32,893 bases of DNA from Bacteroidaceae bacterium (lineage in GTDB: Bacteria > Bacteroidota > Bacteroidia > Bacteroidales > Bacteroidaceae), in NCBI GenBank assembly GCA_017535725.1, contig JAFXTO010000012.1:1-32893 (forward strand), in the 5' to 3' direction. Below, piece by piece: positions 9,680 through 25,553 of this stretch; the first letter of the stretch is position 1, and the number at the start of each line of letters is the position of its first letter. A program made the position numbers and the translations under genes. Below the pieces are notes generated by a model, which saw only the letters and a program-made list of their open reading frames with translations, ran no database searches and was not told the origin of the DNA.

Positions 9680-16369
<6,690 letters not shown>

Positions 16370-18684: not shown

Positions 18685-19503
18685 TTAGTAAATCTCGACT
18701 TTCGCCGTATGCAGATGGATGCTCTCCAGGTCTGGCATACGGCGAAAGTCGCCGTATATACGGGTGAGATAGGCCGCAGGGTCATGGGGTGCCAGAAAAG
18801 GATACCCTTCGAAGTCAATGGTACTCAGCGGGAATAGGTCTTCGGGACGGCGCGTGCTCTCGTAGGGAATGCCCAAGCCATAGTGCAGCACCTTTTGTGG
18901 AAACAGACGACCTATCCAGCGCAAGACGGGATAGATATACCGAACGTTCAACTCAAAAAGCTTGCTGGTCTTGCGCAGTATTTGCTGGTCGTTGTACTCC
19001 GGGTTGCGCATAATCTTAAAGATGTGTCCGATGGTACGGTTCGAGAGCCAGTGTAGCGGCGCAGGAATCTTCTCGACGTAGAAGAGATCGATGAACAACC
19101 CTTGCAGTTGGCAACGGCGGTCGTAGTGGTTCGTCTCTTCGATGTAACTGCGACGGTCACGTAACTTGGCGTAGGTGAAGACATAACCAGGGTCGGTCTC
19201 ATGGGTCTGCAGGGCATAGTCTGTGCCCTTGCATTCTTCAGGCAGTACTCGCAGCAGTTGCTGGTAGTCCGCTTTGGGCAGTTCGACATCCACATCATCG
19301 TCCCAGGGGATGAATCCTCCGTGACGAACGGCACCAATCAGGGTTCCCGATCCTAACCAATAGCGAATGTGATGGCGCCGACACACGGCATCCAACCAAA
19401 GCAGCATTTGGAACATTCGTTCCTGTTGGCGACGTAACAGCGAACCTTCGGGAGCAAAGCGCTCGCGCAGGGCTCGATTCTCGGATTCTGAAAGAAGTGC
19501 CAT
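18685..19503 (-). CDS. LicD-family phosphotransferase
   Basis: 272-residue cytoplasmic protein of the LicD/fukutin-like nucleotidyltransferase-fold family, whose known members transfer phosphocholine or a similar group from a CDP-activated donor onto a surface glycan. The signature WLGSGTLIGAVRHGGFIPWD (49-68) continues into DDDVDVELPK, supplying the catalytic acidic residues. Further conserved parts are the LRDRRSYIEE and GLFIDLFYVEKIP segments. It diverges from a nucleotidyltransferase::aminotransferase fusion gene, a natural source of an activated donor. The last 20 codons contain a perfect 16-bp inverted repeat and an atypical ending (HLHTAKVEIY). Acceptor and transferred group are unknown. 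Confidence 0.88.
   Translation of the reverse strand: MALLSESENRALRERFAPEGSLLRRQQERMFQMLLWLDAVCRRHHIRYWLGSGTLIGAVRHGGFIPWDDDVDVELPKADYQQLLRVLPEECKGTDYALQTHETDPGYVFTYAKLRDRRSYIEETNHYDRRCQLQGLFIDLFYVEKIPAPLHWLSNRTIGHIFKIMRNPEYNDQQILRKTSKLFELNVRYIYPVLRWIGRLFPQKVLHYGLGIPYESTRRPEDLFPLSTIDFEGYPFLAPHDPAAYLTRIYGDFRRMPDLESIHLHTAKVEIY
18697..18750. repeat. perfect 16-bp inverted repeat overlapping the licD-like 3' end
   Basis: GACTTTCGCCGTATGC (18697-18712) pairs exactly with GCATACGGCGAAAGTC (18735-18750), with a 22-nt loop. It lies in the last codons of the minus-strand gene, ending about 9 nt before its stop. Confidence 0.85.
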
Positions 19504-19528
19504 AGGTAATCAAATTGCGTTTTCGGTG

Positions 19529-19618
19529 CAAAGATACGTAAAAGTTTAAAGTTTAAAGACATGACAAGCAAAAACTTTAAACTTTAAACTTTAAACTTTA
19601 AACTTTTCCGTATCTTTG
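19529..19618. promoter_or_regulatory. divergent promoter region with AAACTTT tandem repeats
   Basis: A minus-strand -7 box (TATCTTTG read from 19536 to 19529) faces the licD-like gene. A plus-strand TATCTTTG (19611-19618) faces the fusion gene. Between them, AAACTTT is repeated five times exactly (19572-19606), and its reverse complement AAAGTTT occurs twice plus a partial copy (19541-19558). No TTTG -33 box sits at the usual 20-nt spacing for either gene; the repeats occupy that place. Confidence 0.6.
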
Positions 19619-19647
19619 CGCCCTGAAACTAAAAAAAGGAACGAACT

Positions 19648-21465
19648 ATGCAAGCGATAATCCTTGCCGCAGGGATGGGACGCCGCCTTGGCGAACTCAC
19701 GCGAAATCAGACGAAGTGTATGATAGAAGTCGGAGGAGTCCGGCTGATAGACCGTATGCTCATGCAGTTGCGGTCTCTGCCACTTACCCGCGTCATCATC
19801 GTTGTAGGCTATCAGGCCGAAGGGCTTCGTCAGCATATCGGCGACCGGTATGCGGACTTGAATATCGAGTATGTGGAGAACGAACTGTACGACCGCACGA
19901 ACAATATTTATTCGTTGGCACTTGCTCGTGAACTCTTGGTGGAGGACGACACGTTGCTCATCGAGAGTGACTTGATTCTTGATGACCGTCTTTTCCCCCT
20001 CTTGTTGGACAATCCCTGGCCCAACCTTGCACTCGTGGCTAAGTACCGTTCGTGGATGGACGGCACGATGGTGCGATTGGACGAGGACCTCTGCATCACC
20101 AGTTTCGTACCTAAAAGCAGTTTCCACTACGAAGAGCGCGATCAGTACTACAAGACTGTGAATGTCTACAAGTTCAGCCGCGATTTTCTGCGGACTAAGT
20201 ATGTGCCGTTCCTCGAGGTGTATATGCGCACCGTGGGCGAGAACGAATACTACGAACAGGTGTTGCGCGTGCTGACTTTCCTCGACCGTACGGAACTCAA
20301 GGCATTGCCTATTGGTGATGAGCACTGGTATGAAATTGATGATATTCAGGATCTTGACATCGCTGAGACGATGTTTGCTGAAGGACGGGAGCTTTGGCGT
20401 TCCTACTCTCGTCGCTTTGGTGGCTTCTGGCGCTTCCCGGATTTGCTGGACTTCAACTATTTGGTGAATCCCTATTTCCCTTCGGAACGGTTGAAGACGG
20501 AGTTGATGGCCAGCTTCGATGTCCTCCTGACCCAGTACCCTTCGGGTATGCAGGTCAACTCACTTTTGGCTGGCAAGTGTTTCGGAATAGCTCCTGACCT
20601 TGTGGTTCCAGGCAATGGAGCTGCAGAGCTGATAAAGGTGGTTATGGAGCACACCCCCGGTCGTTTGGGTGTCGTCTATCCGACCTTTGAAGAATACCCC
20701 AATCGCAAGGAAGCCGAGGATCTTGTTATCTATACCCCTGATAATGCGGACTTCGCCTACACCGCCGATGACTTGATGGCCTTCTTTGCCGACAAGCAAC
20801 TCTCCATGCTCTTGCTTATCAACCCTGACAATCCCAGTGGCAATTACATTCCTCGTTCTGAAGTACTCAGCCTGCTGGCTTGGTGCGAGCAACGGGGCAT
20901 CAAGTTGCTTGTAGATGAGTCCTTTGTGGACTTCGCCCGCTGCTACCCTGAAGGCACCTTACTTTCCGACGATCTCCTGCGTGCCCATCCGTCGCTGATT
21001 GTTATGAAGAGTATCTCCAAGAGCTACGGCGTGCCTGGTTTGCGCCTCGGTATTCTGGCTACAGCAGACAGCAAGATGATTGCTGCTTGTCGTAGGGAGG
21101 TCAGCATCTGGAATATCAATTCCTTTGCGGAGTACTACATGCAAATTTATGGGAAGTATGTAGCTGATTACCAGCGTGCATGCCGCCTCTTTCAAGAGGA
21201 ACGCGACCGCTTCGAGGGCGAACTGCGTAAGATTTCCTTTCTGCGTGTCATCCCCTCCGAGGCCAACTATTTCCTCTGCGAGGTCAACAACCGCTTCTCT
21301 TCCTCCGAACTGGCCATCCTCCTTATCAAGCGGGTTAACATTCTCATCAAGGATTGCGGCTACAAGAAGGCGTTTGGGTGTAAGAACTATGTCCGCATAG
21401 CAGTCCGTAACACGGCAGACAACGACCGCCTGTTGCAGGCGCTGCACGAGTTGGATCAGGCTTGA
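19648..21465 (+). CDS. fusion of sugar/amino-alcohol-phosphate nucleotidyltransferase and class I aminotransferase-fold PLP enzyme
   Basis: 605-residue two-domain protein. Residues 1 to about 245 are a LicC/RfbA-like nucleotidyltransferase: MQAIILAAGMGRRLGELT is the NTP-binding loop, TKCMIEVGG supplies a lysine, and the EYVENELYDRTNNIYSLALA and LIESDLILDD segments are typical of choline- or aminoalkyl-phosphate cytidylyltransferases. Residues about 265-605 form a fold-type-I PLP enzyme of HisC/CobD type, with INPDNPSGNYIP, LLVDESFVDFA, the PLP lysine K458 in SISKSYGVPGLRLG, and a C-terminal YVRIAVRN carrying a carboxylate-binding arginine. The fusion suggests the PLP domain makes or uses an amine whose phosphate is activated by the first domain. 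An AAGGAA-like site precedes the ATG, and the opine-type dehydrogenase follows by 25 nt. Confidence 0.85.
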   Translation: MQAIILAAGMGRRLGELTRNQTKCMIEVGGVRLIDRMLMQLRSLPLTRVIIVVGYQAEGLRQHIGDRYADLNIEYVENELYDRTNNIYSLALARELLVEDDTLLIESDLILDDRLFPLLLDNPWPNLALVAKYRSWMDGTMVRLDEDLCITSFVPKSSFHYEERDQYYKTVNVYKFSRDFLRTKYVPFLEVYMRTVGENEYYEQVLRVLTFLDRTELKALPIGDEHWYEIDDIQDLDIAETMFAEGRELWRSYSRRFGGFWRFPDLLDFNYLVNPYFPSERLKTELMASFDVLLTQYPSGMQVNSLLAGKCFGIAPDLVVPGNGAAELIKVVMEHTPGRLGVVYPTFEEYPNRKEAEDLVIYTPDNADFAYTADDLMAFFADKQLSMLLLINPDNPSGNYIPRSEVLSLLAWCEQRGIKLLVDESFVDFARCYPEGTLLSDDLLRAHPSLIVMKSISKSYGVPGLRLGILATADSKMIAACRREVSIWNINSFAEYYMQIYGKYVADYQRACRLFQEERDRFEGELRKISFLRVIPSEANYFLCEVNNRFSSSELAILLIKRVNILIKDCGYKKAFGCKNYVRIAVRNTADNDRLLQALHELDQA

Positions 21466-21490
21466 ACTATTATTCCTGTCTGTTGAAAGA

Positions 21491-22492
21491 ATGAAAACGA
21501 AAGTATGTATCTGTGGTGGTGGCAATCTGGCCACCGTTTGTGCCGGCTTTTTGGCTGCTCAAGAGACGGTTGCCGTGAGTCTGCTTACCCGGAAACCGCA
21601 GGCGTGGGTATCCGAAGTGGAAGTTATAGACCCCGATGGCCGTTGTTTCCGAAGTCAGCTGCAACGCATTAGCGACCGCCCAGAGGATGTCGTTCCGCAG
21701 GCAGACCTCGTCCTATTGTGTCTGCCTGGCTTTGGCATAGAGCCTACTTTGATGGCTATCAAGCCTTACCTCTCTTCCACGACCGCCGTCGGTTCCGTGG
21801 TCTCCAGCACGGGTTTTTTCTTCTTCGCGCATAAACATCTCCCCGCCCAGCAACCCCTTTTCGGCTTCCAGCGCGTACCCTTCATCGCCCGCACAGAAGT
21901 CTATGGCCATCGTGCTCACCTTCTGGGCTATAAGAAAGAGCTCTCCGTTGCCTTCGAGAACGATTCGGCAGGTTATTCGATTTTAGAAAACCTATTCCGC
22001 ACACCGATTCGCCGCCTGAATAACTTCTATGAGGCAAGTCTCACCAACAGCAACCCCATCCTGCACACGGGTCGTCTCTTCACCCTCTGGCATGACTGGA
22101 ACGGCGAAGCCATTGCCACGCCCATCCGTTTTTATGAGGAATGGACAGATGAGGCTTCCGCCTGCATCCTAGCTATGGACGACGAACTCATGTCCCTGAC
22201 TCGCAAGCTCGGTATCGACGAACAGGCTGTACCCTCACTGCTAACGTATTACGAATCCACCGATGCCCCCTCGCTAACCCACAAGATTCGTAGCATAGCC
22301 GCCTTCCAGGGTATTCTGGCTCCTATGTGTCAGACCTCAGCCGGCTACGTCCCCGATTTCAACAGCCGTTATTTCATAGAAGACTTCCCCTTTGGACTCC
22401 GTTTCATCCGTCAACTACTTCACGAGCACGAGCTCCCCTGTCCACACGTTGATGAAGTGTATGCTTGGGGGATGCAAAAGGTACGTTCGTAA
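21491..22492 (+). CDS. NAD(P)-dependent opine (octopine/nopaline) dehydrogenase family protein
   Basis: 333-residue two-domain oxidoreductase. The N-terminal Rossmann domain starts CICGGGNLATVCAGFLA, a dinucleotide-binding loop close to the start, with LVLLCLPGFGIEPTL around the next beta strands. The C-terminal helical domain has NSNPILHTGRLF, the place of the catalytic histidine in opine dehydrogenases, and ends with SRYFIEDFPFGLRFIRQL. Family members reductively join an amino group to a 2-oxo acid (octopine, nopaline, staphylopine-like products). The gene is 25 nt after the fusion gene and is probably cotranscribed, so its amine substrate may be the product of that fusion. The actual substrate is unknown. 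Confidence 0.88.
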   Translation: MKTKVCICGGGNLATVCAGFLAAQETVAVSLLTRKPQAWVSEVEVIDPDGRCFRSQLQRISDRPEDVVPQADLVLLCLPGFGIEPTLMAIKPYLSSTTAVGSVVSSTGFFFFAHKHLPAQQPLFGFQRVPFIARTEVYGHRAHLLGYKKELSVAFENDSAGYSILENLFRTPIRRLNNFYEASLTNSNPILHTGRLFTLWHDWNGEAIATPIRFYEEWTDEASACILAMDDELMSLTRKLGIDEQAVPSLLTYYESTDAPSLTHKIRSIAAFQGILAPMCQTSAGYVPDFNSRYFIEDFPFGLRFIRQLLHEHELPCPHVDEVYAWGMQKVRS

Positions 22493-23447: not shown

Positions 23448-23522
23448 AGGGAAAAAATCCTTTTTTCGGCTGCAAAAGTAAGAAATAATTGTCAAAGTGC
23501 AATGAGTTTCGCCTATTTTCTG

Positions 23523-23530
23523 TACTTTTG
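23523..23530 (+). promoter_or_regulatory. -7 box of the DUF4954 gene
   Basis: TACTTTTG matches TAnnTTTG, 28 nt before the ATG at 23559. It mirrors the minus-strand box at 23473-23480. No good TTTG -33 box is seen at 20-nt spacing. Confidence 0.5.
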
Positions 23531-23558
23531 CACCGGAATTCCCTTACAAAACGAAATT

Positions 23559-25553
23559 ATGGAACCCATCACGACAAGACAATTAACAGCAGCTGAGATT
23601 CAGAAGCTGCAGGAGCAAGGCTGCTCTTCCGAGGACTGGAGCAACATCTATATTACCGATGAGGCCAGCCTGAAATACATCCGTGCCACACGCTTCTCAG
23701 GAGAAATCCGATTAGGACGTTTCGAGAAGAGCTTTGAGATGCCTGGCGGCATGCATAAGCACTCCGGCCTCTTCCATACCACGCTGCACAACGTCACCAT
23801 CGGCGACGACTGCTGTATCGAGAACATCAAGAACTACATCGCCAACTATGATATTGAGAATGACTGTTTCATAGAGAATGTGGACATTATTCTCTGCGAT
23901 GGCCCCACCAGCTTCGGTAATGGTGTCGATGTGGCCGTCCTGAATGAGACCGGAGGCCGCGAGGTCACCATCCACGACCGTCTCACCGCCCACGAAGCCT
24001 ACCTCGAGGCGTTCTACCGTCATCGTCCTTTGCTTATCGACCGCCTGAAGCAGTTTGCCGCCCAGCGTACGGCGGAGCAGACAAGTTCCCGAGGAACCAT
24101 ACGTCACCACAGCACCATCGTGGACACTGGTTACATTAAAAATATGTACGTGGGCGCGTACGCGAAGATTGAAGGTGCCGGTCGCCTGAAGAATGGCACC
24201 CTGAACAGCCGCCGCGAGTCTCCCATCCATATCGGCTACGGCGTCATTGCCGATGATTTCATCATCCAGGACGGCTCCGTCGTCGAGGACTGCACCACAC
24301 TGACCCGTGTCTACGTCGGACAGTCCTGTACCTTGGGTCACAGCTACAGCGCCTCCGACAGCCTCTTCTTCTGTAACTGCCAGGAAGAGAACGGTGAAGC
24401 CTGTGCCATCTTTGCAGGTCCCTTTACCGTCACTCACCACAAGTCCACCCTCCTCATCGCCGGCCTCTTCTCCTTCATGAATGCCGGTTCTGGTTCGAAC
24501 CAGAGCAACCACATGTACAAGCTTGGTCCTATCCATCAGGGAGCTTTGGAGCGTGGTGCCAAGACCAGCTCGGACAGCTACATCCTCTGGCCTGCTCGCA
24601 TCGGAGCCTTCTCCCTCGTTATGGGACGCCACTCCTCACACCCAGATACTTCCCTGTTGCCCTTCTCCTATCTTATTGAGAAGAAAGGTGAGACCTATTT
24701 GGCTCCTGGTGTCAACCTGCGTTCGGTCGGTACTGTGCGCGATGCCCAGAAATGGCCCAAGCGCGACCGTCGTGCCAAGGAAGGCCGCATCGATGCCGTG
24801 AACTTCAACCTCCTCTCGCCCTATACCATCGATAAGATGTTCCATGGTCTGCAGATTCTCACCGAGTTGGAACGCCTGAGCGGTCCCACCAGTGATGTAT
24901 ATGCCTACCAGAGCGCTAAGATTTCCAACAGCTCGCTCTATCGTGGACAGAAACTCTATCGTATTGGAATAGAAAAATTCCTCGGCAATAGCCTTATCTC
25001 CCGCTTGGAGAAAATCGACTGTTCCTCTGTCGAGAGCGTCCTCGAAGGCATCAAGCCCACCTCGAAGAACGGACTCGGACAGTGGGTGGACCTGGCCGGA
25101 CTCATTGCTCCAAAGGAACTCGTCAAGGCCCTGCTCGATGACGTCGAGGCAGGTCGCTGCAACAGCCAGGCAGAGTTCGACGCAGCCCTGCGAACGCTTC
25201 ATGCTGACTACTATGAACTCGAATGGACGTGGGCCTACGAGAAGATGCTGGAATACTACCAGCTCACCGACGACCGTATCACCATCGAAGACCTCATCGC
25301 CATCGTCCGCCAATGGAAGCAGAGTGTCGTGGAACTCGACCGTATGCTCTATGCCGATGCTAAGAAGGAGTTCTCCCTTTCTGCCCGCACAGGCTTCGGA
25401 TTCGATGGTGCCAGTCGCCGTACCATAGAGGCTGACTTCGAGCAAGTGCGTGGGGAATTCGAGACGAATCCCTTCGTGACCGAGGTGCAGGCACATATCG
25501 AGCGGAAAAGCGTACTTGGAGACCGCATAATAGCGATGTTAGAGGCTCTGTAA
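23559..25553 (+). CDS. DUF4954 family protein (left-handed beta-helix-like)
   Basis: 664-residue cytoplasmic protein with no signal peptide. Its first two thirds consist of hexapeptide-like turns (IGDDCCIENIKNYIANYDIENDCFIENV, IHIGYGVIADDFIIQDGSVVEDCTTLTRVYVGQSCTLGH) typical of left-handed parallel beta-helices found in acyltransferases and sugar nucleotidyltransferases. HH and histidine-rich patches (FTVTHHKS, GRHSSH) recall the acyltransferase catalytic histidine. The C-terminal third is helical (EKFLGNSLISRLEKID... to MLEAL). I match it to DUF4954, common in Bacteroidetes, with no established activity. I chose the start at 23559 because of the -7 box just upstream; an open frame to 23502 includes that box. 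A terminator follows. Confidence 0.82.
   Translation: MEPITTRQLTAAEIQKLQEQGCSSEDWSNIYITDEASLKYIRATRFSGEIRLGRFEKSFEMPGGMHKHSGLFHTTLHNVTIGDDCCIENIKNYIANYDIENDCFIENVDIILCDGPTSFGNGVDVAVLNETGGREVTIHDRLTAHEAYLEAFYRHRPLLIDRLKQFAAQRTAEQTSSRGTIRHHSTIVDTGYIKNMYVGAYAKIEGAGRLKNGTLNSRRESPIHIGYGVIADDFIIQDGSVVEDCTTLTRVYVGQSCTLGHSYSASDSLFFCNCQEENGEACAIFAGPFTVTHHKSTLLIAGLFSFMNAGSGSNQSNHMYKLGPIHQGALERGAKTSSDSYILWPARIGAFSLVMGRHSSHPDTSLLPFSYLIEKKGETYLAPGVNLRSVGTVRDAQKWPKRDRRAKEGRIDAVNFNLLSPYTIDKMFHGLQILTELERLSGPTSDVYAYQSAKISNSSLYRGQKLYRIGIEKFLGNSLISRLEKIDCSSVESVLEGIKPTSKNGLGQWVDLAGLIAPKELVKALLDDVEAGRCNSQAEFDAALRTLHADYYELEWTWAYEKMLEYYQLTDDRITIEDLIAIVRQWKQSVVELDRMLYADAKKEFSLSARTGFGFDGASRRTIEADFEQVRGEFETNPFVTEVQAHIERKSVLGDRIIAMLEAL

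Follow-up and report, generated by a model that had tools for sequence, protein, structure and literature searches.

A Bacteroidales gene module that probably makes, activates and N-carboxyalkylates ethanolamine phosphate for transfer by LicD

We analyzed a stretch of 32,893 nucleotides from a Bacteroidaceae bacterium (assembly GCA_017535725.1, contig JAFXTO010000012.1; hereafter the window), in which an earlier note had claimed a set of three genes, namely a LicD, a fusion of a nucleotidyltransferase with a pyridoxal phosphate (PLP) enzyme and, 25 nt behind it, an opine-type dehydrogenase. Open reading frames (ORFs) lie at exactly those coordinates: a LicD-family phosphotransferase of 272 aa (18685..19503, minus strand), a fusion protein of 605 aa (19648-21465, plus strand) with Pfam matches to NTP_transf_3 at residues 3-122 and Aminotran_1_2 at residues 317-599, and an octopine-dehydrogenase-family enzyme of 333 aa (21491..22492, plus strand). 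The LicD and fusion genes diverge from starts 144 nt apart. From the gene families, their linkage, exchangeable slots and gene fusions, we consider it likely that the trio constitutes a module for surface tailoring, which would make, activate and N-carboxyalkylate ethanolamine phosphate, followed by LicD transfer to a surface glycan; all substrates, the acceptor and the step order are deduced from these observations. The genome assembly is 76% complete, which limits the LicD count and the absence of PEP mutase given below for this genome.

The fusion is not a chance joining, because 14 relatives align across it with 59-81% identity and because it is matched at full length in 68 of the 72 fusion-positive genomes of the family, the other four holding it in pieces or in part. 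These 72 come from 301 family genomes searched with both the fusion and the dehydrogenase, and were called positive at ≥51% identity over ≥280 residues (G289, with a 70-residue piece at a contig edge, was counted negative). The first half of the protein (approximately residues 1-245; 19648..20382, plus strand; PF12804, E 6.5e-12) is a putative CTP:phosphoethanolamine cytidylyltransferase. It had been described as LicC-like, which agrees with its nearest solved relatives, PntC (6pd1, E 7.9e-13) and LicC (1jyk, E 1.6e-10), the next being 7whr (1.5e-07). A structure model of the fusion predicted from 83 sequences (pLDDT 93.6; an earlier 15-sequence model, with pLDDT 70.1, was not used for the structure search) retrieved the PntC-AEPT protein of Treponema denticola (6pd1/6pd2) as the top rows in Foldseek.

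In PntC, Glu104 is positioned to contact the amine of 2-aminoethylphosphonate (AEP), and LicC has the smaller Asp105, according to the part of PMC6697681 available to us. Glu106 of the fusion aligns with this amine-binding acidic position and is present in all 76 nucleotidyltransferase rows of an 83-row alignment, the other 7 rows being PLP-only; the conserving rows span loci with an opine dehydrogenase, with an ornithine cyclodeaminase (OCD)-type gene or with neither, as well as unfused relatives and AEP loci. A second PntC residue, Glu196, had no certain counterpart position in the nucleotidyltransferase alignment. The nucleotide used by this half would be CTP.

The second half (approximately residues 251-605; 20398..21465, plus strand) matches the CobD-type fold, and we read it as a candidate L-serine(threonine)-O-phosphate decarboxylase, acting on phosphoserine or, less likely, on phosphothreonine. 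Its K458 aligns with K216, the PLP lysine of CobD, and its closest solved relatives are 6oux (SMUL_1544, titled a decarboxylase and presumably acting on serine-phosphate) and Salmonella enterica CobD. The fusion reaches about 178-180 bits (178.2) with the CobD model TIGR01140 and about 131-132 bits (130.9) with the HisC model TIGR01141, under the respective cut-offs of 290.55 and 276.55. The genome's own HisC, on contig C67, shows the reverse preference, with 315 bits for the HisC model, which is over the cut-off, and 186 for the CobD model. This separate gene and the reversed preference indicate that the PLP half is not a housekeeping HisC. Of the former description as a HisC/CobD-like enzyme with K458, the PLP lysine thus stands by alignment, and CobD-like fits better than HisC-like. 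Another CobD-like gene of the same genome, at C51, scores 236 bits, also under the cut-off. Elsewhere, CobD-like PLP genes occur with no adjoining nucleotidyltransferase (L229:7890-9026, L230:8074-9195 and L231:8168-9298; L denotes loci), and those of L229 and L230 have a neighbor that resembles glutamine synthetase by eye.

The dehydrogenase matches octopine dehydrogenase (3iqd) over residues 1-331 with an E value of 1.5e-29, and scores 100 bits with PF02317 (E 1.6e-28) against a gathering threshold of 30. Residues H192, R293 and D298, which align with H212, R324 and D329 of octopine dehydrogenase and whose counterparts we take to be its catalytic or substrate residues, are invariant in 21 of 21 aligned rows, the window and two AEP loci included. 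The enzyme is predicted to N-carboxyalkylate an amine. Its association with the fusion is strong: a close opine dehydrogenase (E<1e-50; the weaker G021, G026 and G075 were counted negative, G026 being a 110-residue contig-edge piece with 51% identity) occurs in 47 of the 72 fusion-positive family genomes versus 2 of the 229 fusion-negative ones (Fisher p 5e-34). In wider samples, 22 of 295 genomes of the order, which we take from record titles to be Bacteroidales, match the fusion, the window's own included and 11 of them over the PLP part only, and 2 of 395 genomes of the phylum do so at E≤1e-60, one being the window's own. The closest relative, L031, has a fusion 88% identical to that of the window; a transposase-like ORF (RAYT type, by eye; roughly L031:6801-8195) sits there between fusion and opine dehydrogenase, and a 482-aa ORF lies at the same place in L102. 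Distant opine dehydrogenases (24-28% identity) in L250-L255 had no fusion within the stretch fetched; those at L251:6963-8174 and L252:7839-9113 stand in what appear by eye to be polysaccharide-type clusters, and perhaps make N-carboxyalkyl amino-acid or amino-sugar substituents.

The slot directly 3′ of the fusion turned out to be exchangeable. Scored by tblastn in 71 of the 72 family loci, it holds an opine dehydrogenase in 43, a gene of the OCD/mu-crystallin family in 12 and a LicD in 3; three further loci have the opine dehydrogenase elsewhere, nothing was recognized in 10, and none of the 71 carries both dehydrogenases. For comparison, ORF-based counts, which overlook a gene when a longer frame overlaps it (as in L049, L063, L077 and others), gave 42 opine, 11 OCD, 3 LicD and 13 other in 69 of 72 loci. 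A second set of 80 named loci, taken from 538 relatives and drawn partly from the same genomes (L121 and G180, for example), yielded 51 with an opine dehydrogenase, 14 with OCD, 5 with LicD, 2 with an opine dehydrogenase nearby, 7 with none and 1 at a contig end. Among them, Bacteroides cellulosilyticus DSM 14838 (L150) has the OCD form, and Alloprevotella rava DSM 22548 (L126) has an opine dehydrogenase together with LicD. Both dehydrogenases occur together only in L122, a record titled Verrucomicrobia; like L147 and L175, titled Fibrobacter, it is named outside the Bacteroidales and may be misbinned.

L043 and L045 illustrate the exchange. Their DNA agrees at 93% identity for the 4,037 bp that end with the fusion, and again at 97% for 1,931 bp after the dehydrogenase, a stretch that takes in the following gene, which resembles a flippase by eye, and reaches into LicD. 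Between these flanks lies an opine dehydrogenase in one locus and an OCD in the other. A quick tree built from 75 fusions, with tblastn-based labels, has the OCD label on 13 rows and requires it to be gained or lost 11 times, of which at least 9 are forced by branches with SH-aLRT ≥95; the scatter of this label is about the same as that of shuffled labels. The opine dehydrogenase and OCD/mu-crystallin folds are unrelated, and each belongs to a family that works on imines or amines next to a carboxylate. Their sharing of a single slot is the strongest indication that the dehydrogenase step would be a reductive N-alkylation.

The front end of the module can be exchanged as well. In L182, a nucleotidyltransferase gene is followed by those for phosphoenolpyruvate (PEP) mutase (417.8 bits, NCBIfam cut-off 319.55), phosphonopyruvate decarboxylase (512.6 bits, cut-off 312.5), an AEP transaminase split over two frames and then an opine dehydrogenase. 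L183 has the same gene order with an intact transaminase (469.1 bits, cut-off 360.8), its mutase and decarboxylase being recognized by sequence match only. These AEP genes occupy the site that holds the fusion and opine dehydrogenase in L035, the DNA of L182 and L035 being 80% identical upstream of the site and 68-73% downstream. Since AEP is the phosphonate isostere of ethanolamine phosphate, replacement of the fusion by an AEP pathway indicates that the fusion probably supplies ethanolamine phosphate, and that the amine of the module is probably the aminoethyl group of either compound. AEP as the substrate of the window's own enzymes was considered and set aside, as the genome, at its present completeness, gave no match to PEP mutase (TIGR02320). 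A search for further loci combining AEP and opine genes gave 12 matches in 295 genomes of the order, with no AEP gene match in the 8 regions read. L071 (7929-14879) has, besides a fusion and an opine dehydrogenase, homologues of two L182 genes, PEP mutase (10936-12237) and phosphonopyruvate decarboxylase (13743-14879), and between the two a 494-aa protein that by eye combines radical SAM with a cytidylyltransferase-like part.

The same exchange bears on the possibility that the PLP half of an otherwise identical module makes (R)-1-amino-2-propanol phosphate from threonine-phosphate, or serinol phosphate by transamination of dihydroxyacetone phosphate. We regard this as unlikely: an AEP pathway serves the same opine dehydrogenase family at the same site, which favors a C2 amine; the PntC-like Glu106, together with the small pocket of PntC, argues against an amine substrate larger than C2; and the best sequence match of the PLP half, 6oux, is titled a decarboxylase.

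Unfused relatives of the two halves (34-37% and 30-31% identity) lie in other families of the order. In seven loci (L222-L228), a CDP-alcohol-phosphotransferase-like gene, confirmed as PF01066 in 4 of 4 tested, comes after separate nucleotidyltransferase and CobD-like genes. This conserved three-gene cassette (for example L224:7354-9935) possibly leads from serine-phosphate to a phospholipid of the CDP-ethanolamine type. Because the unfused relatives adjoin a CDP-alcohol phosphotransferase, CTP activation of an amino-alcohol phosphate is supported, albeit as inferred chemistry. The amino-alcohol phosphate and CTP steps proposed in the earlier note thus gain support from the AEP exchange and these partners, and the amine can be narrowed beyond that proposal to what seems to be an aminoethyl (C2) phosphate. 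In L189, a distant fusion lies directly 5′ of a LicD-like gene. Together, these arrangements point to a core of amino-alcohol phosphate formation and CTP activation, with LicD or a CDP-alcohol phosphotransferase as the sink and N-alkylation as an optional, exchangeable insert.

The LicD of the window carries an IPWDDD motif and scores 145.4 bits with PF04991 (E 3.7e-42; gathering threshold 22.6); both LicD matches of the genome fall inside this one gene. A LicD lies within 4 kb of the fusion in 39 of 71 family loci and 59 of 80 named loci. In 50 genomes searched, LicD was present in 29 of the 30 that carry the fusion and in 12 of the 20 that lack it, at 1-6 matching pieces each, so that by our estimate a gene picked at random would rarely have a LicD within 4 kb, in about 2% of cases or less. 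Opine dehydrogenase and LicD are even fused into one gene in five genomes (L037, L040, L048, L058 and L095; Pfam run on L037 and L095). These fusions and LicD distances, with the dehydrogenase linkage above, are the outcome of the co-occurrence check that the earlier note had proposed. An unusual pair, a short-chain dehydrogenase/reductase (SDR) fused to a CTP_transf_like domain, is found 3′ of fusion, opine dehydrogenase and LicD at L069:12378-13565, with a relative in L041.

That the product would be attached to a lipid and not to a glycan appears quite unlikely, although it fits the phosphotransferase cassettes of L222-L228 and the only NCBIfam match of the window's LicD, a diacylglycerol cholinephosphotransferase (64.3 bits; cut-off 225). 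Against it, polysaccharide-synthesis families recur among the 105 of 239 neighbors of other loci that were scanned: Polysacc_synt (flippases) 5, GDP_Man_Dehyd 4 and Epimerase 4, beside acyltransferases with 5, though methionyl-tRNA synthetase was the commonest with 7; L182 and L186, moreover, are polysaccharide-type clusters. We hold it to be similarly improbable that the dehydrogenase yields some free metabolite, an opine or another, and merely travels with the fusion, leaving LicD to attach unmodified ethanolamine phosphate. Such an arrangement is suggested by LicD genes directly after the fusion with no dehydrogenase in 3 of 71 family and 4 of 11 order-level loci (such as L213, L214 and L189), and by an opine dehydrogenase on a different contig from the fusion in L248 and L249, but leaves the opine dehydrogenase::LicD fusions, the recurrent opine/OCD exchange directly after the fusion and the return of the opine dehydrogenase behind an AEP pathway unaccounted for. 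An ordinary sugar-1-phosphate nucleotidyltransferase joined by chance to a housekeeping histidinol-phosphate aminotransferase has almost no probability left, for although the Pfam families are generic and the best NCBIfam match of the nucleotidyltransferase half is an archaeal GlmU-type model (72.1 bits, far under its cut-off of 292.1), LicC and PntC are the best solved relatives of that half and both the separate HisC and the model preferences oppose it. As far as sequence tells, then, the genes do not rarely co-occur, nor is the fusion a plain hexose enzyme with a housekeeping HisC, the two outcomes that the earlier note had named as speaking against it.

In the surface-tailoring module we favor, the CobD-like half would convert phospho-L-serine (less likely phospho-threonine) to ethanolamine phosphate, which the LicC/PntC-like half would turn into CDP-ethanolamine with CTP. 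The opine dehydrogenase would then join a 2-oxo acid, most simply pyruvate, to the free amine and reduce the imine to give an N-(1-carboxyalkyl)ethanolamine phosphate group, or 'phospho-opine', and LicD would move this group onto the surface glycan. The primary-amine Glu is kept regardless of the dehydrogenase present, which is a weak hint that N-alkylation follows CTP activation, on CDP-ethanolamine. Limits of this proposal are the 32 of 71 family loci with no LicD within 4 kb and the occurrence of the AEP-for-fusion exchange in two genomes of one genus. More broadly, we lean toward a widespread Bacteroidales system in which exchangeable opine or OCD dehydrogenases, perhaps of opposite stereochemistry, N-carboxyalkylate CMP-activated aminoethyl phosphate or phosphonate supplied by interchangeable front ends (the NTase::CobD fusion or an AEP pathway), so that phosphoethanolamine or AEP groups of the surface, usually cationic, would become zwitterionic phospho-opines.

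The divergent genes share a 144-nt promoter region (19504..19647) with TATCTTTG in both directions; we take TAnnTTTG to be the Bacteroidota -7 element. Between the two promoters (19540-19607) lie AAACTTT-type heptamer repeats, with related repeats in L031, L102, L104 and L105, and the tract is possibly length-variable. A similar back-to-back layout recurs in 8 of 8 sequences compared (the window, L031, L032 and L102-L106; L104 with one additional base in each promoter box), which suggests common regulation of LicD and the fusion. The module's neighbors in the window are a gene for a GH36 glycosidase and one for a DUF4954 protein, the latter (23502-25553, 683 aa) also carrying DUF6819.

Among known systems, PntC-AEPT of T. 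denticola (Tde1415; 6pd1/6pd2) and its Pnt pathway likewise have a cytidylyltransferase N-terminal to the PLP enzyme that supplies its substrate, a Glu at the amine and LicD-like genes nearby, in the available part of PMC6697681. The module differs in that its PLP half is CobD-like (class I/II) and not a class-V AEP transaminase, in that no PEP mutase was found in the incomplete genome, and in the added N-alkylating dehydrogenase. With the Lic phosphocholine pathway (LicC and LicD) it shares an NTP_transf_3 cytidylyltransferase and a LicD transferase; unlike that pathway, the module has no choline kinase or importer gene, has Glu106 in place of LicC Asp105, would draw its substrate from the fused PLP domain and includes the extra dehydrogenase. 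To our knowledge, N-alkylation is part of neither the Pnt nor the Lic pathway. The match to octopine dehydrogenase (3iqd, 3c7a) and its three conserved residues notwithstanding, the amine would here be (CDP-)ethanolamine phosphate or AEP and not an amino acid. CobD and Cj1436 share the CobD fold, the PLP lysine and the predicted product, Cj1436 being likened by description: the available part of PMC12409886 has it turning serine-phosphate into ethanolamine phosphate for the Campylobacter jejuni capsule. Here, by contrast, the enzyme is fused to a cytidylyltransferase and lies under the CobD equivalog cut-off. The module may thus function like the Pnt and Lic pathways; its architecture is that of PntC-AEPT, except that the supplier is of the CobD type, and it has one step more.

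If the oxo acid were pyruvate, the predicted product would be a compound known from the O-polysaccharides of enterobacteria, N-(1-carboxyethyl)ethanolamine phosphate (Cet-EtnP), which is carried by Proteus. The earlier note had called this compound a known O-antigen substituent, and N-[(R)-1-carboxyethyl]ethanolamine phosphate is indeed named among O-polysaccharide constituents in the glossary and a legend of a Proteus/Klebsiella review (PMC9630907). Our literature search, largely outside subscription papers, found no pathway or genes for it, nor a description of this fusion or of the N-alkylation step. The module thus offers a concrete four-activity candidate for a known surface substituent. 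If the proposal is true, Prevotella-like bacteria of the rumen and gut, as well as Bacteroides, would possess a surface chemistry that alters amine charge, and its swappable parts would allow one to predict whether a strain displays plain, opine-type or OCD-type ethanolamine phosphate or AEP.

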